Source: Kyrpidia tusciae DSM 2912 (lineage in GTDB: Bacteria > Bacillota > Bacilli > Kyrpidiales > Kyrpidiaceae). Taken from it: a DNA stretch of 64,000 nucleotides. The position numbers and the translations under genes are program-made. The stretch's first letter is position 1. The number at the start of each line of letters is the position of its first letter. Location of the stretch: the NCBI RefSeq assembly GCF_000092905.1, contig NC_014098.1:1178001-1242000 (forward strand). The letters are read 5' to 3'. The notes beneath the pieces are model-generated. The model saw nothing but the letters and a program-made list of their open reading frames with translations. It searched no databases and had not been told where the DNA came from. This document shows, in pieces, positions 7,068 through 29,775 of this stretch.

Positions 7068-7090
7068 GGTGAACCCTGCACAGCGATCGG

Positions 7091-7315
7091 TTAGAGGATG
7101 CGGTAAAACCACTGGGTGATGGGGCCGAAGACAGCTTCCAAGGGAGCCAGAGGGTTAAACTGCAGGTAGACCTGCCACTGGACCATGGCTGCCATAACGA
7201 GGGCCAGCGCGAGTAACGTTCCGTGAACAGCCAACTCTCTGCGCTGGCCGGCCCGCCACATGGCGGGCCATTCCAACAGCGCAGCGGCGACGAACAAGAT
7301 GGCCAGCCAGAACAT
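7091..7315 (-). CDS. small two-helix membrane protein, unknown function
   Basis: 74 residues starting MFWLAILFVAAALLEWPAMW, with two hydrophobic segments (about residues 2-18 and 30-46). The ATG at 7315 is preferred because GGAGG lies 10 bases before it. An in-frame ATG at 7342 overlaps the stop of the histidine kinase gene (ATGA) and would add nine residues through translational coupling. It is co-transcribed with that kinase. No family is recognised; it may be a membrane accessory of the kinase. Confidence 0.6.
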   Translation of the reverse strand: MFWLAILFVAAALLEWPAMWRAGQRRELAVHGTLLALALVMAAMVQWQVYLQFNPLAPLEAVFGPITQWFYRIL

Positions 7316-7338
7316 GGTCGCTCTTCCTCCGAGTTTCC

Positions 7339-8250
7339 TCATGGGTTGACCTTATGTTGGCCTCGGAAACCCGCGATTATACGGCTGGACAGGGCTCTCC
7401 GTCGCCTGGAGACGGAGTCGCCGGTGGTGCCGCCCGGCGTCAGGCGAATGCGGAGCCCGGTGAGCGTCCGCTCAAAGCGAACTTCCGTCCCAATGGAGGC
7501 GGCCCGCTGGTGCATGAGTGTTACGCCGTAATGCCCCTCTTTTTGTCCGCGATCCCAACTTTCCTCCTGTTGCCCGTCGTCAGTGATGATCAACTCCCAC
7601 CGTCCTCCGGACCGGGTCCAAGTGAGAAACACCCGCCGTGCTGCTCCGTGTTTGACGGCGTTCACCACTGCTTCCCGGCAGATGGCTGCGAGAACCGGCC
7701 ACGCGACGGGAGCCAGTTCCGGCGCATCGCCGGCGATCACGACCTGTGCGCCGAAACCGGCGGCGAACTCCTCGAGATGGGTTTTCCACGTGTGTTCATC
7801 CACCGAGTCGCCAATCCCAGGCCGCAGATCGAGGATCGTTTTGCGCAGTTCACTGTCGACCTCCCGGAGGGCGTCTTCGATCTCCCCCAGGTGTACACTG
7901 GCCGGATGTCCGGCCGGAAGTTTTATTCGGGCATGGTTCAGTTGCACGCCGATAAAAAAGAGGGTTTGCCCAATGTCGTCGTGAAGTTTCTCGGCCATTC
8001 TCTTATGCTCGGATGCGACGAGCTCCCGTTCCCGTGCCTGGGCGATCTCGTCATGCAAGGCGTCCAGCCTGGCAAAAAGCCGCCTGGAAATGAGGGCCGT
8101 AACCAAACCTGCAAGGACGGCGGTAATCCAGTTGGAGGTTTCCATGGGAAGAAGGCTGAGCACCCAAGGAGTATGTCGAATCAGTTCAAAAAGGGCGACG
8201 ACCACGGCGGGGACGATGAGCAAGGCACGCCGAACAGCGCGTTCGTTCAC
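7339..8250 (-). CDS. HPK7-type sensor histidine kinase (orphan)
   Basis: 303 residues, GTG start behind GAGAGGTGATC. Two membrane segments (about 8-24 and 40-56), a short coiled region, then the dimerisation/phosphoacceptor motif KRMAEKLHDDIGQTLFFIGV with the likely phospho-histidine at H90. The ATPase domain has REAVVNAVKHGA (N box), ITDDGQ and HYGVTLMHQRA. This is the NarL/DesK-partner class. A response regulator normally sits beside such kinases; none is seen here. The short outside loop suggests sensing in or at the membrane. It is followed by the small membrane protein. Confidence 0.85.
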   Translation of the reverse strand: MNERAVRRALLIVPAVVVALFELIRHTPWVLSLLPMETSNWITAVLAGLVTALISRRLFARLDALHDEIAQARERELVASEHKRMAEKLHDDIGQTLFFIGVQLNHARIKLPAGHPASVHLGEIEDALREVDSELRKTILDLRPGIGDSVDEHTWKTHLEEFAAGFGAQVVIAGDAPELAPVAWPVLAAICREAVVNAVKHGAARRVFLTWTRSGGRWELIITDDGQQEESWDRGQKEGHYGVTLMHQRAASIGTEVRFERTLTGLRIRLTPGGTTGDSVSRRRRALSSRIIAGFRGQHKVNP

Positions 8251-21248: not shown

Positions 21249-21264
21249 CGACGGGGGGTTGAAC

Positions 21265-22266
21265 ATGCGGGTTACGGTGGCGGCGAAGGATCTCGGATAT
21301 GGCGGCCATGCCCGTACGGTGATCGAGCTGGCACATGGACTTCAAAGCGCCGGTCATCGGGTGACCCTGGCGGTGCCGGAGTCGGCGGCGGTGGACTGGC
21401 CGGTGCAGTGTCCACTGGTCCGGATCGCTCCAGGCGGACCGAATAACCTTCCGGGGTCGGAGGTGGCCGTGGCCGCAGACACCGAATCCTTCGATATCGC
21501 CGCCCGTTGTGCCGGGGGTCGGGTGATCCGCTTTCTGGGGCGATTTGACCCTTCCTACGCCCCGGACCCGGCGGCCGCCGACCGCAGTATCCGGGAGGCA
21601 GCGGCGGTGTGGGCGACGTCGGAATCGATCGGAGCCCGTGTGCGGTCCCGATTCGGGAAAGTCGCAGCGGTGTTGCATCCGGGGGTCGATCCCTCGGTGT
21701 TTCGAGGGCGCCCGGAGCGTCGCCCGGCGGGTGTCGGCCAGAAGGTCTTGCTTCTTGTCGCTCCCGAAGGCCCGGGATTGCCGCCCCGGGACCTGGGCGT
21801 CGCGTATGCCGCCCTGGATCGGGTGAGATCGGTGTTACCTGGAATCCAGTGTCACGCCCTCTGCCGGGGGGGCGTCCGGCCCCCCGGAGAAGGCTGGGTC
21901 TTGCACGGCCGGCTGCCCGATCACCAGCTGGCCTTCCTGTACAACTCCGTGGACCTGTTCATTCATCCGGCGAGTGGCGAAAGGGCTCCGATTTCCGTCC
22001 TGGAAGCGATGGCCTGCGGCACCCCGGTGGCCGGCGTGTATGGAGACGGTATGAACGAAATCGCCGTGTCCGGGTACAACGCCGTGCTCGCCCCACCTGG
22101 CGATGTCGAGAGGCTGGCCCGGATGATCCAACTTGCCCTCACAGACCTCACGCTGCGAACCCACTTAATCGCCGGAGGGTTGGAAACCTCCCGGGAGGCC
22201 CACTGGACCCGATTGTATCAAGAGGCGGCCAAGGCGGTGGTGAGGGCGGCGTCCACTTGGCGATAA
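21265..22266 (+). CDS. family 4 glycosyltransferase
   Basis: 333 residues from the ATG at 21265 (GGGGGGTTG upstream). GT-B fold: GYGGHARTVIELAHGLQSAG, VLHPGVDPSVFRGRP at the domain joint, VLHGRLPDHQLAFLYNSVDL and the donor-site ERAPISVLEAMACGTPVAG with two glutamates. It is about 40 residues shorter than typical family members but keeps all motifs. It is in tandem with the SPOCS-like unknown gene and overlaps the end of the opposite GT4 gene by 49 bases. Confidence 0.8.
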   Translation: MRVTVAAKDLGYGGHARTVIELAHGLQSAGHRVTLAVPESAAVDWPVQCPLVRIAPGGPNNLPGSEVAVAADTESFDIAARCAGGRVIRFLGRFDPSYAPDPAAADRSIREAAAVWATSESIGARVRSRFGKVAAVLHPGVDPSVFRGRPERRPAGVGQKVLLLVAPEGPGLPPRDLGVAYAALDRVRSVLPGIQCHALCRGGVRPPGEGWVLHGRLPDHQLAFLYNSVDLFIHPASGERAPISVLEAMACGTPVAGVYGDGMNEIAVSGYNAVLAPPGDVERLARMIQLALTDLTLRTHLIAGGLETSREAHWTRLYQEAAKAVVRAASTWR

Positions 22267-23213
22267 AAACGCTGCCAAGTCCACTGGGCGGCGGTGCGAA
22301 GCCCCGCCCGGCGCAACCGCTCCCGGAGAAAATCGTTGCTGAGTACCCGTAGGATCGCCCGGGCCAAAAGTTCCGGGGACCGGGGCGGGACCATGAGGCA
22401 GTTCTCGCCCGGCACGGCAAAATCCCTCACCCCTCCGGAATCGGTGGTGACGACGGGGGTCCCGCAGGCCATGGCCTCAAGGGCGGGCAGGCACAAAGCC
22501 TCAAACCAGGACGCCGAGACGAACAGGTCGCTCCCTGCATAAAGCTCGGCCATATCCCGGTCGGTGTCCGCCCGGGCCAGGGTGAAGGGTAAATCGGTCT
22601 GAATCTCGACCCCGTCCGTGGATACCATCACGATCTCCACGTCCGGGATCACCCGGCGCACGATGTCCATCGCTTGAAAGAAATCTGCCGATCCTTTATA
22701 GAAATAGCCGTGACTCTCGGCCCGATAGATGAAAAAGACCCGGTGCCTGCGCCGGGGAATCTCGGGGTAGGGCCGAAATACCGATGGGTCGACCCCGGGC
22801 TGGACGAGATAACTGGAGCGACCCACCGCCTGCCGGATTTGCTGCTGGAGCACCCGGGAGATGGCCAGGACGGGAACGGGGAGCCGGTACGTTTCCAGGG
22901 CGGCTCCTTTATCCGGAACCCACAGGGGTTCGTAGCCGTTGGACAGGCGCACGACCCGAGCTTTTCCCGCTTGATAAGCGGGCATGACGGTCGGGTAAAA
23001 ATTTGGAATGTAAACGTCCGCTTCCGGCAGGACTTCCGGGATCAGGGCCGGCACGCGGATGATCGGCACCCGGACGTCGTAAGCCAGCTCTGCATTCTGC
23101 AACAGTACGATGGACACCCGGTGGCCATAGGCCTGCAAGCCATTGGCCATTTCGGCGATCACCCGGCATCCCCCGCCCCGGTGAAGGCTCATCACCGGGA
23201 TGACGATATTCAC
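22218..23213 (-). CDS. family 4 glycosyltransferase, end of the sugar-nucleotide operon
   Basis: 331 residues; ATG at 23213 overlaps the stop of the GT2 gene upstream (ATGA). GT-B fold: HRGGGCRVIAEMANGLQAYG, YLVQPGVDPSVFRPYPEIP, ESHGYFYKGSADFFQAMDIV (an extra loop after the joint) and the EALCLPALEAMACGTPVVTT donor site with DSGGVRDFAVPGENCLMVPP. It shares architecture with the convergent GT4 gene, so the two may be diverged copies. It is the last of six genes beginning with the sugar-nucleotide dehydrogenase, so its donor is probably made by that operon. Confidence 0.85.
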   Translation of the reverse strand: MNIVIPVMSLHRGGGCRVIAEMANGLQAYGHRVSIVLLQNAELAYDVRVPIIRVPALIPEVLPEADVYIPNFYPTVMPAYQAGKARVVRLSNGYEPLWVPDKGAALETYRLPVPVLAISRVLQQQIRQAVGRSSYLVQPGVDPSVFRPYPEIPRRRHRVFFIYRAESHGYFYKGSADFFQAMDIVRRVIPDVEIVMVSTDGVEIQTDLPFTLARADTDRDMAELYAGSDLFVSASWFEALCLPALEAMACGTPVVTTDSGGVRDFAVPGENCLMVPPRSPELLARAILRVLSNDFLRERLRRAGLRTAAQWTWQRFYRQVDAALTTALAAS

Positions 23214-23953
23214 GACGTACCACCTCCAAACTGTTGTCTTCGACGGGCAGCCCGTTGTCGCACGAGATTACTGTAGTAGCGGTCGGCGGCGGGGTTGGCG
23301 CTCATGTTCGACCCGTGCCACCGGTAGGACAAGAGCGGTTCCGGGATGTATCCCACCGTGTATCGTTCCACCAGCCGCAGCCAGAGGTCATAATCGTGAC
23401 CTTGAACCAGTGCCGGATCGAATCCCCCGACTTGGAAAAAGGCATCTTTCCGCACGATCGTGGTGGAGCCGTTAATGAAACAACCTTCCAATAAGATGGC
23501 ATAGAGGCGGTTTCGGTCCGAATCCCAGGGTGACTCCACCGTATACTGGCGGACGCCGTGGGCGTCGATCACATGAAACGACGTATAGCACAGGGCCGAA
23601 TAGGGGTGACGGGTGACGTATTGCCACTGAGCGGCGAGTTTTCCCGGCTCAAACCGGTCGTCTGAGGATAACCAGCATACGTAGGGCGCCCGGGCGGCGG
23701 CGAACCCCCGATTCAGCGCGGTGGCGGCGCCGGATCTGCGCTGGCGAATCACCTGGATCCGGGACCCAAAGGTTTGCAGAATGAGCGGCGTCCGGTCGGT
23801 GGAGCCGTCGTCCACCACCACCACTTCAAAGGGCGGAGCCCCCTCTTGCATCAGAGCGCTGTCCACGCACTCAAAGATATAGCGCTCGTGGTTGTACACC
23901 GGCACCACCACGCTGATGAGCGGACTCCCCGTTCCGGCTCCCACCGCACTCAC
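23210..23953 (-). CDS. family 2 glycosyltransferase
   Basis: 247 residues; the GTG at 23953 overlaps the stop of the epimerase gene (GTGA). A start eight codons earlier is possible. GT-A fold: ISVVVPVYNHERYIFECVDS, VVVVDDGSTDRTPLIL, ALNRGFAAARAPYVCWLSSD DRF (metal-binding acidic pair) and GSTTIVRKDAFFQVGGFD. It ends with a short helical tail. These enzymes extend glycans from NDP sugars in the cytoplasm. It is coupled to the epimerase before and the GT4 after. Confidence 0.85.
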   Translation of the reverse strand: MSAVGAGTGSPLISVVVPVYNHERYIFECVDSALMQEGAPPFEVVVVDDGSTDRTPLILQTFGSRIQVIRQRRSGAATALNRGFAAARAPYVCWLSSDDRFEPGKLAAQWQYVTRHPYSALCYTSFHVIDAHGVRQYTVESPWDSDRNRLYAILLEGCFINGSTTIVRKDAFFQVGGFDPALVQGHDYDLWLRLVERYTVGYIPEPLLSYRWHGSNMSANPAADRYYSNLVRQRAARRRQQFGGGTS

Positions 23954-24864
23954 ACGTGATACACCTGCCGCATCCACTCCAAAGTCAAAGGGAGGCCTTC
24001 GTCCAGGGTGATCTTCGGATCGTGGCCGAGATCCCGCTCGGCCCTGGCGATGTTCGGGCGCTTGTTGACCGTGTTGTGCGCATCTTCGGGGAGATAGGTC
24101 ACAAGATCTTCCGACGCCCCGGTGAGGGCGAGAATTTTGTCGCTCAATTCATGCACGCTTCGGTATTCCCGTCCGCCGATGTTGTACACCTCTCCGGGGC
24201 GGAATCGATCGATGCACCGGACCAACGTCGCGATCAGGTCGTCCACATACATGAAGACCCGGTGGTAGCCTTTATACACGGTATACGGGAGCCGGTGGAG
24301 GGCCCGGTACAGGAACAGGCACACCACACTGCGGTAGGGGTGATAAAATTCTCCTGGGCCGTAGGCGTTGAACAGGCGCAACCGCATGACGGGCACCTCG
24401 TAACGCTGTTCAAAATTCATGATCTGCACTTCATTCACCCATTTGGTCATGGCGTAGTCGTTATGGGGAATGACCGGCTGGCGAGTCGGCAGATCTTCAT
24501 CAAGGACTGGCTCCCGGCTTTGCCCGTAGATCTCCGAGGAACTGGCAAAGATGAGCTTAAATCCCTTTTTCCGCTGAAATTCCAAGATATTCCGAGTGCC
24601 CACGACATTGGTCTGCCACAGGGTGTCGTAATACTCCTCGCCATTGATTCGCCCGAATTCTGCAGCCAAGTGGTAAACGAAGTCGTAATCCTGCTCGAAC
24701 ACCCGCTCCAGTTGGCGATAATTGCCCACGTCAGCGCGAAAATATTGAGGCTCAGCGGTGTGGTGCAGGTCGCACTGCCACACATCGTGACCAGTTTGCC
24801 GCAAGGCCGAGACGAGGCGTTTGCCGAGGGTTCCCCGGCTTCCCGTCACCAACACGGTGCTCAC
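23950..24864 (-). CDS. NAD-dependent sugar epimerase/dehydratase (extended SDR)
   Basis: 304 residues, GTG start behind GGAGTGAACC. Rossmann motif TGSRGTLGKRLVSAL, catalytic FASSSEIYGQ and YAMTK (Tyr-Lys pair), then LRLFNAYGPGEFYHPYRSVV and VYNIGGREYRSVHELSDKIL, all typical of nucleotide-sugar epimerases and 4,6-dehydratases. The exact sugar cannot be told. Together with the dehydrogenase, second SDR and nucleotidyltransferase upstream it makes up the donor-synthesis set of this locus. Confidence 0.8.
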   Translation of the reverse strand: MSTVLVTGSRGTLGKRLVSALRQTGHDVWQCDLHHTAEPQYFRADVGNYRQLERVFEQDYDFVYHLAAEFGRINGEEYYDTLWQTNVVGTRNILEFQRKKGFKLIFASSSEIYGQSREPVLDEDLPTRQPVIPHNDYAMTKWVNEVQIMNFEQRYEVPVMRLRLFNAYGPGEFYHPYRSVVCLFLYRALHRLPYTVYKGYHRVFMYVDDLIATLVRCIDRFRPGEVYNIGGREYRSVHELSDKILALTGASEDLVTYLPEDAHNTVNKRPNIARAERDLGHDPKITLDEGLPLTLEWMRQVYHV

Positions 24865-24870
24865 GACGGT

Positions 24871-25593
24871 TCACTCCTTTCGTTTCACCTTGGATGGGGA
24901 CGGCAAAAAACGGCCCTTGTCGGCCGCGAACAGTTTTTGCGCCCGCCTAAAGTCTTCCATTCGCCCGACATCGATCCATACGCCGGATAGCGGGTAGTGG
25001 CATACCCGGCGGCCTTCGGCGATCAGGCGGCCGATGAGGTCGGTCATGTCGCAACGCCCATCCGGAACCATGGCCAAGGCGTCCGGGGAGAGTACGTAGA
25101 TCCCGGTGCTGACCAGGGCCGGAAGACGCGGCTTTTCCTCCACCCGGAGCACGCGCTCTCCTTGGGTGTGAAGGACGCCAAAATCCACGGGAATCTCCGA
25201 TGGGTAGGAAACCAGGGTCAACGCAGCACCGTATTCCTCGTGTTTGGCGGCGATGTCACAAAATCCCGCCGTGGTCAGGATGTCGCCGTTGACGACGAGC
25301 AGCGGCTGATCGGCAGGCAACTGGCTGAGGCCGCCGGCAGTACCCCGGGGTTCCGTTTCTTCGATATAGGTGATGCGGGCGCCGAAGGCTTCGCCGCCGC
25401 CCAGGTAGGTGCGGAGAAGATCGGCCCGGTAGCCGACGGTCAAGACCAGGTCGTCAAAACCCTGGGACTTAAGTTGCCGGATCAGGATTTCGACCATGGG
25501 AACCCCGTCCAAGGGGAGGAGGGGCTTGGGAATGACGTCGGTGAGCGGGCGCAGCCGCTGACCCCGGCCTCCCGCCATAATGACCGCTTTCAC
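24871..25593 (-). CDS. sugar-phosphate nucleotidyltransferase
   Basis: 240 residues; GTG start behind GGGGGGGAG giving MKAVIMAGGRGQRLRPLTD. The NTP-binding AGGRGQRLRPLT, the PKPLLPL sugar-phosphate loop, LLVVNGDIL (metal-binding Asp) and VEEKPRLPALVSTGIYVLSP are present. It forms NDP-sugars from NTP and sugar 1-phosphate; it resembles glucose-1-phosphate thymidylyl- and mannose-1-phosphate guanylyltransferases in the N-domain, without the C-terminal hexapeptide domain. Metal and nucleotide preference are not visible. It is 6 bases upstream of the epimerase gene. Confidence 0.85.
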   Translation of the reverse strand: MKAVIMAGGRGQRLRPLTDVIPKPLLPLDGVPMVEILIRQLKSQGFDDLVLTVGYRADLLRTYLGGGEAFGARITYIEETEPRGTAGGLSQLPADQPLLVVNGDILTTAGFCDIAAKHEEYGAALTLVSYPSEIPVDFGVLHTQGERVLRVEEKPRLPALVSTGIYVLSPDALAMVPDGRCDMTDLIGRLIAEGRRVCHYPLSGVWIDVGRMEDFRRAQKLFAADKGRFLPSPSKVKRKE

Positions 25594-25606
25594 AGGTCTC
25601 CCCCCC

Positions 25607-26596
25607 TCACACGACATAGTTGTCGCCGGGAAACCGGTCCAGGTGGTCGTTGACCCATGCCAGCGTTCGTTCGAGCCCTTCCCGAAGGTCGACCTGGGGG
25701 CGCCAACCCAGGATTCTCGCGGCTTTCGAGGAGTCCGCCCACAGTCGGCGCACTTCGCTCCGGGTCGGCCGCAGCCGCTTGGCCTCCTGTTCCACCGGCA
25801 GCCTTCGCCCGGTGATCGAAAAGACTTCCTCAACGAGATCGCCGATGGTGATTTCCCGGCCGCTCCCGATGTTGAAAACTTCTCCCACGGCCTCATCCAC
25901 CTCCGCGGCCCGGACGAAGCCGGCAGCGGTGTCCACAACATAGGTAAAATCCCTTTTTGTCGACAAATCGCCCAGTTGAATCCGGTCCCGGGTCAGGGCC
26001 TGCACGAGAATGGTGGGAATGACAGCCCGGAGGGATTGGCGAGGCCCATAGGCGTTAAAGGGCCGCACGGTGACCACCGGAAGCTCATAAGAGCAAAAAA
26101 AGCTCTCGGCCAATTTGTCGGCCCCGATTTTGCTCGCCGAATATGGCGATTGGCCCTGAAGGGGATGATTTTCATCGATGGGGACAAACCGTGCGGTTCC
26201 ATAGACCTCGCTGGTGGACGTGTGGATGACCCGCCGGACGCCCAGGTCCCGGGCGGCGGTGAGAATGTTCAGGGTGCCGATCAGGTTGGTCTCCACCACT
26301 TCCCGGGGGTGAGCGTAGGAGTAGGGAATCGAAATCATTGCCCCGAGGTGAAAAATCACTTCCATCCCCTGGGCGGCTTGAAGAACGGCCTCGGCATCGC
26401 CCAGATCGCCGGCCACCACATCCAATTCCTGCTGGATGGCCGGGTCGAGGTGGGCGAGCCACCCGAGATTGCGGGTGGAGTTATACCGGACAAAGGGCCT
26501 CACCCGGGCTCCGCGCCGGACCAAAAGCTCTGTCACGTGACTTCCGATAAATCCTGCGGCCCCGGTGACGAGAACGGGTACTCCATTCCAGTTCAC
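25607..26596 (-). CDS. NAD-dependent nucleotide-sugar 4,6-dehydratase/epimerase (extended SDR)
   Basis: 329 residues; the GTG at 26596 has AGGAGGAG upstream and overlaps the previous stop (GTGA). Motifs: TGAAGFIGSHVTELLVRRGA, HTSTSEVYGTARFVPIDE, YSASKIGADKLAESFF and VRPFNAYGPRQSLRAVIPTI. The RPFVRYNSTRNLGWLAHLDP segment resembles LegB-type UDP-GlcNAc 4,6-dehydratases, but no other legionaminate gene is nearby, so that name is not given. The product presumably feeds the downstream transferases. Confidence 0.8.
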   Translation of the reverse strand: MNWNGVPVLVTGAAGFIGSHVTELLVRRGARVRPFVRYNSTRNLGWLAHLDPAIQQELDVVAGDLGDAEAVLQAAQGMEVIFHLGAMISIPYSYAHPREVVETNLIGTLNILTAARDLGVRRVIHTSTSEVYGTARFVPIDENHPLQGQSPYSASKIGADKLAESFFCSYELPVVTVRPFNAYGPRQSLRAVIPTILVQALTRDRIQLGDLSTKRDFTYVVDTAAGFVRAAEVDEAVGEVFNIGSGREITIGDLVEEVFSITGRRLPVEQEAKRLRPTRSEVRRLWADSSKAARILGWRPQVDLREGLERTLAWVNDHLDRFPGDNYVV

Positions 26597-27636
26597 GGCG
26601 TGCTCCTCCTTTCCTCCCATTTACCCCGCCAATACACCACGTCCACGTCCACGCCGTCCTTGTAGGGAAGAAAGCCGAGCTTCTTGAGCTGGTCCTCGGT
26701 GAGAAGGGGATCTTGGGCGAACACTTCCACGCCCTGTTGCTGCAGCTGCCGGCCAAGCTCCACCGCCCGGCTTCCCTCCACCACCGGGACCCCGGGCTTA
26801 TAGGTGAGTCCCGCTAAAAGGGCGGCCCGCCTGCCCTGGGCGATCTTCACCAGGTGGCGCCGGTACGCCTGGTCCGTTTTGGCGGCAGCTTCAAGGAGAG
26901 GGGCGTTGAGCCATTGCTGCAGAAAGTCAAGGTCCTTGGGCAGGCACTCCCCGCCAATGCCATAATCGACATCCGCCAGTCGGACGTTACCTTTGGTGCC
27001 CACGGCCAGACGCAATTCGTCAAAATCGAGACCCCCGGCGTCACATCCCATTTTCAGGGCTTCGGCAAAAGCGATCTCCATGTACCGGGCGGAGTTTTCG
27101 ACGAGTTTGGCCAGCTCGGCGATCTCCGGGCGGCTGACGGGAAAAAGGGGAATTTGGCAAGCGGTATAAAAATGGATCCCCGCCTGAAGGCTGGTCTCCG
27201 TGACTCCTGCGATCACCCGGGTGGTGCCGGTGGGGTCTTCGTCTACCCCAAACAACACCCGGTGAGGGACATGGGTGAGATAAAAATCTTTTCCGGGGGT
27301 GTATCCCCGGGCGCGAAACCTCTCCGCCGCTTTCGCCGTGGTTCCCACGGGAAGGGTGGATTCGATGCTCACCAGGGCTCCGGGTTTCGGGCGCACGCCG
27401 TCCAGGGCTTGAAAGAGCCAGGACAGCCCGGGCCCGGTGGAGACGCAGACAATCCACACGTCGACCTGGTCGGGATCCCGACAAATGCCGTCTGCAGAAA
27501 TGCCCTGCTCTCGCAGGGCGGCTACTTTATCGGGATCGATGTCCACCGCCGTGAGAACGTCGGCGGGTCGAACGCTTCTCAGGTGAGTGAGAACGTGCTG
27601 CCCGATATGGCCCGCGCCGATCACACAGATGTGCAC
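26593..27636 (-). CDS. UDP-glucose/GDP-mannose-type sugar-nucleotide dehydrogenase
   Basis: 347 residues; GTG at 27636 behind GGAGGTGG. N-terminal NAD domain (ICVIGAGHIGQHVLTHL), central domain with GTKGNVRLADVDYGIGGECL PKD containing the catalytic Cys, and a C-terminal substrate domain with LLAGLTYKPGVPVVEGSRAV. It oxidises the C6 alcohol of an NDP-hexose to a uronic acid using two NAD. About 80 residues shorter than WecC or TuaD. It is the first gene of the six-gene minus-strand operon and so probably sets supply of an acidic sugar. Confidence 0.8.
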   Translation of the reverse strand: MHICVIGAGHIGQHVLTHLRSVRPADVLTAVDIDPDKVAALREQGISADGICRDPDQVDVWIVCVSTGPGLSWLFQALDGVRPKPGALVSIESTLPVGTTAKAAERFRARGYTPGKDFYLTHVPHRVLFGVDEDPTGTTRVIAGVTETSLQAGIHFYTACQIPLFPVSRPEIAELAKLVENSARYMEIAFAEALKMGCDAGGLDFDELRLAVGTKGNVRLADVDYGIGGECLPKDLDFLQQWLNAPLLEAAAKTDQAYRRHLVKIAQGRRAALLAGLTYKPGVPVVEGSRAVELGRQLQQQGVEVFAQDPLLTEDQLKKLGFLPYKDGVDVDVVYWRGKWEERRSTP

Positions 27637-27821
27637 GGGGCACCACCTCCAAGGGATGAGGTGTTGCCAGTGTATGAGAGACGGGCAGCCCGCCGTGTGG
27701 ACGTGTGCGGAAAGGGAGAAAACAGGGCGACGGCCTTGGACAGGGGCCGATTCGTTTCGCGAATCTCGGCCATACCATTGTGGTGAATCCCGATTCTGAA
27801 AGAAGGGGGAGGAGATCAGAA

Positions 27822-28643
27822 ATGAGTAGAACACGTAGCCGGCTCGGCTCCCGGAATGCCGACGTCGATGTACTCGGGATTCGTTCGGAGTGCCGAGAGG
27901 CGGAGGTGTTGGAGGCCAGAACGCCTCCTGAGGCGCCGAGCACGCCGGTGACCCCTGTGCCCACCGTGGGTCCTGTGACGATCAAGGCCCCGGTGCTGTT
28001 GGCGCAACTCACCATGCAGATCGACCTGGACGCCTCGATCCGGCTGCCGGATCCGGCCACCGACATCCTTCGCATCGACAAAACGGTCTTCCTGGATCGA
28101 TGCGACCTGCTGATGCCCACCAATCGGCTGTTTGTCCGCGGACGGGTTCGGGAGGATATCCAGTACGGGACGGCTTCTCGGGTGACCCGGAGAGCCGTGA
28201 GCGGAGATGTGCGCCATACCATCGTGGATATCCCCTTTGAAAGCGTCACGGCGGTCACCTTCCTGACGCCGCCCATCGAGCCCACTCCGGAAATCTACGA
28301 GGAGTTCCAAATGGTGGGGCGGTTTGGCCGGCCGCTTCGGGAAACGGACTCCCTGACCATCGTTGACTATGACAGCAAGCCCTATTGCGAATTGGTGAGC
28401 GCCGCCGTGCTCCAGGCGGATGTCCCTCGCCTCTACGGGGAAGGCAGCCATTCGCCCGGCGGGGAACGCGGCTTCCAGGCAGGGGACCCGCCCATCGGGG
28501 AACGGAGCTTCCGCACCTTCCGGGAGCAGATGATGGTGCTGCTGACCATCCAAGTGTTGCAGCGCCAACTGGTGCTCGATCCGGCTCCTCCGGTGGGACC
28601 AACGCCGACGCCGACGACACTGCCGCCTCTGCCGCCGGTCTGA
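27822..28643 (+). CDS. SPOCS-like (DUF3794) spore-envelope protein with Pro/Thr-rich tail
   Basis: 273 residues, ATG behind GGGGGAGGAGAT. After a 60-residue Pro/Thr-containing N-terminal part, the core reads TVFLDRCDLLMPTNRLFVRG RVREDIQYGT...HTIVDIPFESVTAVTFL, which follows the SPOCS pattern of a strand, GxVxExIxY, then the IPFxxxI strand, as in spore coat proteins such as SipL and CsxA. The last 20 residues (PAPPVGPTPTPTTLPPLPPV) are mucin-like. It diverges from the sugar operon and converges with a transferase bearing GalNAc-transferase motifs. The assignment rests on pattern recognition and needs a profile search. Confidence 0.55.
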   Translation: MSRTRSRLGSRNADVDVLGIRSECREAEVLEARTPPEAPSTPVTPVPTVGPVTIKAPVLLAQLTMQIDLDASIRLPDPATDILRIDKTVFLDRCDLLMPTNRLFVRGRVREDIQYGTASRVTRRAVSGDVRHTIVDIPFESVTAVTFLTPPIEPTPEIYEEFQMVGRFGRPLRETDSLTIVDYDSKPYCELVSAAVLQADVPRLYGEGSHSPGGERGFQAGDPPIGERSFRTFREQMMVLLTIQVLQRQLVLDPAPPVGPTPTPTTLPPLPPV

Positions 28644-28772: not shown

Positions 28773-29732
28773 TTATTGCAAAGGCAGCGCGAAGGTTTGG
28801 ACAAGCCACTCGTCGCTCCGGACCCGGATCTTGAATAGTTCCTGACGGCGCTCCAGCGTACCGTCCGAAAGGACCGCCGTCAACAGGTCGAAACGCATGG
28901 GGTGTGTGGACAGCCCCCGTAGGAGCCGGGCCAATCGGGGTCCGCTAAAATGGCTGAGTGCCATTCGAGCCAAGTTGTAGTAGTAATCGTAGGAGGGAAC
29001 GGCGTAGGGATGAGCTTTGCGGAACACGTGGCGAACCACGGTGTTCGGTGTCGTGCCGAGGCGATATCCCGTGAGCCACATCCGAATGGACCATTCGATG
29101 TCTTCAAACCCCCAGGTGCGAAGTCCGTCGTCGAAGCCGCCGACCTGTCGAAAAACCTCTGAGGAAACGGCGATGCAAGCCCCGGGGAGAATCGGTACTG
29201 CCTGCGGCCTTTCGGGCTTTGGCAGCCAGCGAATCTCTCCGGACCCGGACAACGACTGCCCGAATCCCGCCAAGTCCGTCCGGTCGTGGGCAGCAATCCC
29301 CGGACACACCGCATCCCAGTCTCCGGAGCGCAGTAACTGTACCAACTCGTCCAGCCAGCCATCCTCAACAAACACATGGGCGTCACAGAAGACGAGAATT
29401 CGCCCCCGGGCCGCTTCGGCACCGACATTTCTTGCCCTGGCCGCTCCGATACCGCCGGTGTGAATCACGTTCGGGGCTAGGGCGGGCGCCCTTTCGTGCG
29501 CGTGTGGGACATGCACTTTTGGACCTTCCGGGCTTCCTTGGGCCCTTTCGCCGGGCCGCGCCGCGTGGGCGAGGCTATCGGCGATCTCCGGCGTGGTATC
29601 GCTGGAACCGTCCTCCACCACAATCACTTCATAAGTCACGCCGGTTCGAGCCCCCCAAATCGACCGAACCGTTTGTTCCAGATGATCCCGTTCGTTTCGG
29701 GCAGGCAGGACAATGCTGACCTCGGGGTCCAC
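28773..29732 (-). CDS. family 2 glycosyltransferase with polypeptide GalNAc-transferase-type motifs
   Basis: 319 residues; GTG at 29732 with GGGAGGGG five bases upstream. GT-A fold: SIVLPARNERDHLEQTVRSI, VIVVEDGSSDTT, then ILVFCDAHVFVEDGWLDELV. The metal site at 117-119 is DAH, the DxH form of eukaryotic polypeptide GalNAc-transferases, not the usual DxD. Further on, GGFDDGLRTWGFEDIEWSIR MWLTG (199-222) and NTVVRHVFRKAHPY (230-243) match the Gal/GalNAc-transferase consensus (WGxExxExxxRxWxxG...GHxFRK). The lectin domain is absent. It lies next to the SPOCS-like protein with a PTPTPTT tail, a plausible Ser/Thr acceptor. Confidence 0.8.
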   Translation of the reverse strand: MDPEVSIVLPARNERDHLEQTVRSIWGARTGVTYEVIVVEDGSSDTTPEIADSLAHAARPGERAQGSPEGPKVHVPHAHERAPALAPNVIHTGGIGAARARNVGAEAARGRILVFCDAHVFVEDGWLDELVQLLRSGDWDAVCPGIAAHDRTDLAGFGQSLSGSGEIRWLPKPERPQAVPILPGACIAVSSEVFRQVGGFDDGLRTWGFEDIEWSIRMWLTGYRLGTTPNTVVRHVFRKAHPYAVPSYDYYYNLARMALSHFSGPRLARLLRGLSTHPMRFDLLTAVLSDGTLERRQELFKIRVRSDEWLVQTFALPLQ

Positions 29733-29766: not shown

Positions 29767-29775
29767 TAGTATATG
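29767..29775 (-). promoter_or_regulatory. candidate sigma-K-type -10 element
   Basis: On the minus strand CATATACTA fits CATAnnnTA exactly, 35 bases before the GTG at 29732. No clear -35 is visible at the right distance. Confidence 0.35.

Follow-up and report, generated by a model that had tools for sequence, protein, structure and literature searches.

A gene of Kyrpidia tusciae DSM 2912 raises the question of whether a bacterium may place sugars directly on a spore-surface protein with an enzyme resembling those that initiate mucin O-glycosylation in animals. According to a 2014 review, bacterial counterparts of the mucin-initiating enzymes had yet to be identified (PMC4202792), and a structure-based listing for a gut archaeon includes a predicted ppGalNAcT (PMC10939349). 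In the open literature, outside of which most subscription journals lie, we found no papers on the transferase family described here. The gene is located in a stretch of 64,000 nucleotides (contig NC_014098.1, positions 1,178,001 to 1,242,000; hereafter, the window), for which a first-pass annotation had noted signatures of polypeptide GalNAc-transferases next to a protein with a Pro/Thr tail. The features concerned are listed below in window coordinates.

28773..29732 (-): GT-A glycosyltransferase of 319 aa, start GTG at 29732
29469..29564 (-): disordered insert of ~30 residues (57-88) in the transferase, pLDDT <50
29767..29775 (-): CATATACTA, similar to the -10 element of sporulation promoters used in the mother cell (sigma E/K)
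27822..28643 (+): CsxC-family spore-surface protein, convergent with the transferase (NF045794, 158.6 bits against a cut-off of 135, E 2e-46)
28587..28640 (+): Pro/Thr tail PPVGPTPTPTTLPPLPPV of the CsxC-family neighbour, proposed O-glycosylation site
21259..27699 (.): sugar cluster with two GT4, one GT2, two epimerase/dehydratase, one nucleotidyltransferase, and one nucleotide-sugar dehydrogenase genes (Pfam and NCBIfam)

The transferase and its relatives

The GTG start of the transferase (frame 29732..28773(-)) is preceded by GGGAGGGG, which is a good Shine-Dalgarno sequence. Two Pfam domains were found above their cut-offs, namely, PF00535 Glycos_transf_2 (83.4 bits) and PF02709 Glyco_transf_7C (32.2 bits). 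The Pfam search identified no domains of other kinds, with neither a lectin nor a TPR match, and the chain stops where the catalytic domain stops. No hydrophobic N-terminus or membrane anchor was seen by inspection, and the protein is presumably cytoplasmic. The top NCBIfam match is the mycofactocin glycosyltransferase MftF (TIGR03965), yet the transferase is not a member of that family; its score of 92 bits is far under the cut-off of 280, and it was therefore left without a specific name. Nearly 20 further GT2 matches are present in the same genome, among which no second close relative was found. The disordered insert is absent from the relatives outside the genus.

Three motifs were located: FCDAHVF (D117, H119), RTWGFEDIEWSIRMWLTG (W207-G222), and RHVFRKAHPYAV (H235). 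D117-x-H119 and H235 are predicted to be Mn ligands, D211 of WGFED is predicted to be the catalytic base, and R238/K239/Y243 are predicted to belong to an acceptor-peptide loop.

Taking E values up to 1e-40 as strong matches, we found the transferase in 40 of the 398 Bacilli genomes searched, mostly as a single copy, or in 36 after exclusion of four degenerate paralogues. A search of the phylum outside Bacilli added 24 genomes among about 240. The outgroup consisted of distant GT2 domains among the matches listed. Every core relative read keeps the DxH, the xED Asp, and the C-terminal His, namely, 26 of 26 from Bacilli (including one partial frame) and 24 of 24 non-Bacilli sequences, which come from 20 loci. 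The peptide-loop motif HxFRxxHPY is likewise kept across the core relatives read. We also considered whether DxH might be widespread among bacterial GT2 enzymes and rejected this, as none of 140 other bacterial and archaeal GT2 domains from many phyla has it, and one apparent case (L057) proved to be DxD. Because all core members retain D117, H119, D211, and H235 and DxH does not occur in those 140 domains, the motif likeness goes beyond chance.

The four degenerate paralogues belong to one Bacilli genus (L155:7683-8591, L156:7731-8639, L157:7611-8519, and L158:7816-8751). Their frames are open, yet the WGxED motif, the C-terminal His, and the first of the two DxH metal residues (Asp) are gone, and they are probable pseudo-glycosyltransferases judging from these losses. 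At L234, L235, L237, and L238, the transferase occurs as tandem pairs, and in two genomes, MGLED replaces WGxED in one copy. Only one plasmid record with a transferase gene was found.

The element upstream of the gene resembles the sigma E/K -10 consensus. A relaxed form, CATANNNT[AG], which was picked after the first result had been seen, is present no more than 75 bases upstream of the transferase in 16 of 26 relatives, compared with 0.8 expected, although these relatives are not independent. From this pattern, we infer that the transferase is expressed in the mother cell during sporulation. Because the mother-cell cytoplasm, in which coat proteins are synthesized, also provides nucleotide sugars, a soluble enzyme could act before coat assembly.

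Likeness to animal polypeptide GalNAc-transferases

In a search of solved structures with the transferase sequence alone, the animal polypeptide GalNAc-transferases (GT27) rank first (T12, E 3.1e-20), and with a profile of eight relatives, the GT27 match spans profile positions 4-235 (E 1.4e-32). The motifs of the transferase align one to one with FLDxH, WGGEN/WGGEQ, and HVFRKxxPY of GalNAc-T1, T2, T4, T10, T12, and TgGalNAc-T3. Consistent with the first-pass annotation, the metal site is DAH (a DxH) rather than DxD, with D117 and H119 aligned to FLDxH. The motif order and spacing claimed there are also borne out by this alignment, except that the transferase has WGFED, whereas true GalNAc-transferases have WGGEN.

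The AlphaFold2 model of the transferase (pLDDT 85.8) points in the same direction. The best 50 Foldseek matches are GT27 chains throughout. With VIA-align, the model superposes on GalNAc-T2 with Z 30.4 and 2.6 A over 282 of 319 residues, reaching the last residue, compared with Z 22.3 over 185 residues for the best non-GT27 chain. An independent model of a relative belonging to a different bacterial family (pLDDT 93.8) gave Z 32.1 for GT27 and 22.8 for the best non-GT27 chain. In GalNAc-T2, the Mn ligands are D224/H226/H359 and the peptide contacts include E334/R362/K363/Y367 (PMC4432651); these residues align with D117/H119/H235 and E210/R238/K239/Y243 of the transferase, respectively. Since the Mn-ligand residues match, the DAH maps by alignment onto the donor metal site in solved structures. 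Neither of the results that the first-pass annotation had named as refuting, a DAH away from the donor site or close relatives acting on lipid-linked glycans, was found.

The transferase thus shares with GT27 a whole-length GT-A fold (in the predicted model), the DxH together with the third, C-terminal His, and the HVFRKxxPY loop. The differences are at the xED position, where GT27 has Asn or Gln (WGGEN/WGGEQ) and the transferase family keeps an Asp (WGFED, WGYED, WGFTD, and others), and in the C-terminal ricin-type lectin domain of GT27, which the transferase lacks. Compared with GT27, the transferase is also bacterial, presumably cytoplasmic, and 22-27% identical, with no membrane anchor seen. 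Because of the xED Asp and the missing lectin domain, we kept it out of GT27. According to a survey of GT-A enzymes by Taujale and others (PMC7185993), the xED Asp serves inverting enzymes as the catalytic base and varies among retaining enzymes, and DxH is singled out as a trait of GT27 and GT60. With DxH on the one hand and the Asp of inverting enzymes on the other, the family unites one feature from each side of clade 5 in that survey. Given that the Asp base typical of inverting enzymes is kept, the linkage formed by the transferase is more likely to be beta (inverting) than alpha. The inverting side of clade 5, represented by the A1 domain of the chondroitin polymerase K4CP and GT7, resembles the transferase in WGxED with an Asp base and in the C-terminal His; it differs in having a DxD metal site, a glycan acceptor, and a fold Z of about 21, compared with 30 for GT27.

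In an unrooted tree, the family and GT27 are set apart from 45 other GT2 sequences (support 96/86). After the motif columns were removed and K4CP was added, K4CP grouped with other GT2 and the attachment point of GT27 lacked resolution, such that the tree was rejected as proof of kinship with GT27. Common descent with GT27 is likely based on the fold and on the sequence search, and the tree is no proof of it.

Spore-surface neighbours and Pro-Thr tracts

The convergent neighbour of the transferase belongs to the CsxC family, in agreement with its earlier description as a spore protein, and the Pro/Thr tail reported for it is indeed present, with APPVGPTPTPTTLPPLPPV at its C-terminal end. CsxC is known from the exosporium of Clostridium sporogenes (PMC4942563). 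In the sister genome, the tail is longer (PTPTPTPTPTPT; L133:8932-9771) than in the window (28599-28640). The two closest genomes thus differ in the number of repeats, as would be expected if the repeat changes fast.

Across genomes, the transferase has neighbours on the spore surface that come from three or more unrelated protein families, including CsxC, BMQ_0737, and SipL/LysM. CsxC as a fixed partner was rejected, as it is found in only 15 of 35 transferase-bearing genomes, with BMQ_0737 or SipL proteins in the others. In other Bacilli families, it is replaced by a coat protein of the BMQ_0737 family, which is an outermost coat/spore protein in B. megaterium (PMC4656864). BMQ_0737 is present in 28 of the 36 genomes with the transferase and 33 of the 362 without it (398 genomes; p 4e-19, a statistic that ignores relatedness), and in 26 of those 28, about 4 kb or less separates it from the transferase. 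In an independent record, that of Cytobacillus spongiae, the transferase is near cotE and a BMQ_0737 protein bearing GSQTPTPTPTG and GPTPTPTG. Outside Bacilli, the sporulation protease YabG is among the neighbours, as are proteins that combine SipL and LysM domains and have long PTPTPT linkers.

Tracts of PTPTPT were searched as a codon pattern that has few occurrences per genome. Of 34 genomes, many of which share a genus, 21 have such a tract no more than 3 kb from the transferase, compared with 0.18 expected; the idea that the tail is a quirk of one genome was rejected accordingly. Among BMQ_0737 proteins, the tract occurs in 15 of 17 copies linked to the transferase, mostly from one genus, and in 1 of 29 copies from genomes without it. 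Counted by taxonomic family, the contrast is 6/7 linked vs. 1/11 unlinked (p 0.002). Part of this contrast comes from a BMQ_0737 subfamily of short proteins (220-270 aa), none of which is linked; in long unlinked copies, the tract is rare too. At non-Bacilli loci picked blind to their neighbours, a strict count gave tracts in 5 of 20 and in 1 of 16 random stretches, which is in the same direction and not significant alone. Two CsxC copies located elsewhere in transferase-bearing genomes also carry Pro-Thr runs. Several Bacilli genomes have the transferase and no clear tract nearby (e.g., G026, G082, G126, G138, and G361), and Pro-Thr runs also serve as ordinary linkers.

CsxC carries the tract at its C-terminal end and BMQ_0737 close to its N-terminus, and in SipL-type proteins the tract separates domains. 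As both the position of the tract and the carrier family vary, it is the tract, not the protein, that follows the enzyme. The comparative genomics therefore makes the Pro/Thr tract a likely substrate, as the first-pass annotation had proposed in calling the tail mucin-like, while the enzyme class implied there, GT27, was not supported given the xED Asp and the missing lectin domain. We propose PAPPVGPTPTPTTLPPLPPV and QLPTPTPTATPP as candidate acceptor peptides for the window enzyme.

Proposed function and alternative explanations

Because a GT27-like enzyme recurs beside such spore-surface proteins, it is probable that sugar is put directly on Pro-Thr proteins. We consider the transferase to be, with fair though incomplete confidence, a direct peptide O-glycosyltransferase of Pro-Thr tracts on spore-surface proteins; by sequence and model, it would be an enzyme of GT27 shape that is not classed as GT27. 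From the observed sequence, predicted fold, conservation, and linkage between gene and tract, we infer its acceptor, donor, stereochemistry, and reaction as follows. The enzyme would be made in the mother cell during sporulation and act in the cytoplasm in a nucleotide-sugar- and Mn-dependent manner. A UDP-sugar and Mn would be bound through D117-x-H119 and H235, and a Pro-Thr strand (here the tail of the CsxC-family protein) would cross the active site, in a groove closed by the HVFRKAHPY loop. D211 of WGFED would probably be the base that takes the Thr proton. One sugar would then be transferred to Thr hydroxyls, more likely in beta than in alpha linkage.

Three other explanations have to be weighed, all of them improbable in our assessment. 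The foremost is an ordinary spore-coat polysaccharide glycosyltransferase acting on a lipid-linked or growing glycan, for which the adjacency to coat-protein genes would reflect mother-cell co-expression only. Most bacterial GT2 enzymes have glycan or lipid acceptors, seven sugar-polymer genes lie just past the CsxC gene in the window, and other GT2/GT4 genes are found near several relatives. However, the surroundings vary elsewhere while the Pro/Thr-bearing coat protein persists, the HxFRxxHPY peptide-loop motif is conserved, and the predicted fold is much nearer to the peptide-acting GT27 than to polysaccharide synthases. A point against direct peptide glycosylation is the sugar cluster itself, which includes a LegB-like dehydratase and resembles ytcABC of B. 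subtilis. It is a possible source of the donor or of chain-extending enzymes, but nucleotide-sugar genes are no constant companion of the enzyme elsewhere, and the donor sugar is not settled by those nearby in the window.

Ranked below this explanation is a true bacterial GT27, retaining and forming alpha-GalNAc-Thr as in mucins. All top sequence and fold matches are GT27, and DxH is particular to GT27 and GT60 (PMC7185993); against this, the xED Asp, tied to inversion in the same survey, stands in place of the Asn or Gln of GT27 in every core member, and there is no lectin domain. We regard as least probable that the transferase lengthens a sugar set on the coat protein by another enzyme instead of starting the chain. 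The tandem transferase pairs in several genomes would suit stepwise chains, as would the further transferases nearby, but at most loci, the transferase is the sole family member and the recurring partner of the tract.

A precedent for a spore protein being glycosylated directly on Thr is offered by SgtA of C. difficile, which adds beta-O-GlcNAc onto Thr of BclA3 and is encoded by a gene adjacent to that of BclA3 (PMC7157674). Both SgtA and the transferase are GT-A enzymes encoded beside a spore-surface protein. They differ in that SgtA is WcaA-like with C-terminal TPR repeats and a collagen-like target region (PMC7157674), whereas the transferase has no TPR and would act on Pro-Thr coat tracts. 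A broader interpretation, which we advance tentatively and with less than even confidence, is that this previously unnamed family of Bacillota spore-formers combines the DxH and peptide loop of the mucin enzymes with an inverting Asp base, glycosylates Pro-Thr tracts of unrelated coat proteins, and represents a living intermediate between the inverting and retaining members of clade 5. By predicted fold and metal site, the family would be near the mucin-initiating enzymes. It is directly testable, since it is small and lectin-free and many genomes supply a short, natural candidate acceptor. If active, it would account for how many spore coats may get glycosylated, provide a simple tool to put sugars onto Pro-Thr linkers, and make the inverting-to-retaining change of a GT-A enzyme testable.

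Several other genes recur near the transferase. A protein of ~400 aa that matches nothing in Pfam adjoins it, in most cases divergently transcribed, at about 15 loci (e.g., L136:2950-4173, L138:6607-7923, L149:6120-7331, and L210:6612-7817), and an M67/JAB-type metallopeptidase lies a few kb away at 14 loci (e.g., L136:8276-8722, L138:11711-12253, and L210:9998-10483). In two families, a DUF7164 protein, possibly another glycosyltransferase, directly adjoins the transferase (L137:6783-7631 and L150:720-1565). Outside Bacilli, a Cys-rich family (ELECRPVLKDVxCxFGEKCFH) with only weak matches to CotE/SipL adjoins it repeatedly (L221:7064-7819, L223:5267-5989 and 7082-7864, L229:8410-9531, and L237:7831-8508), and one copy carries the tract PPTTKPPTTQPPTT.
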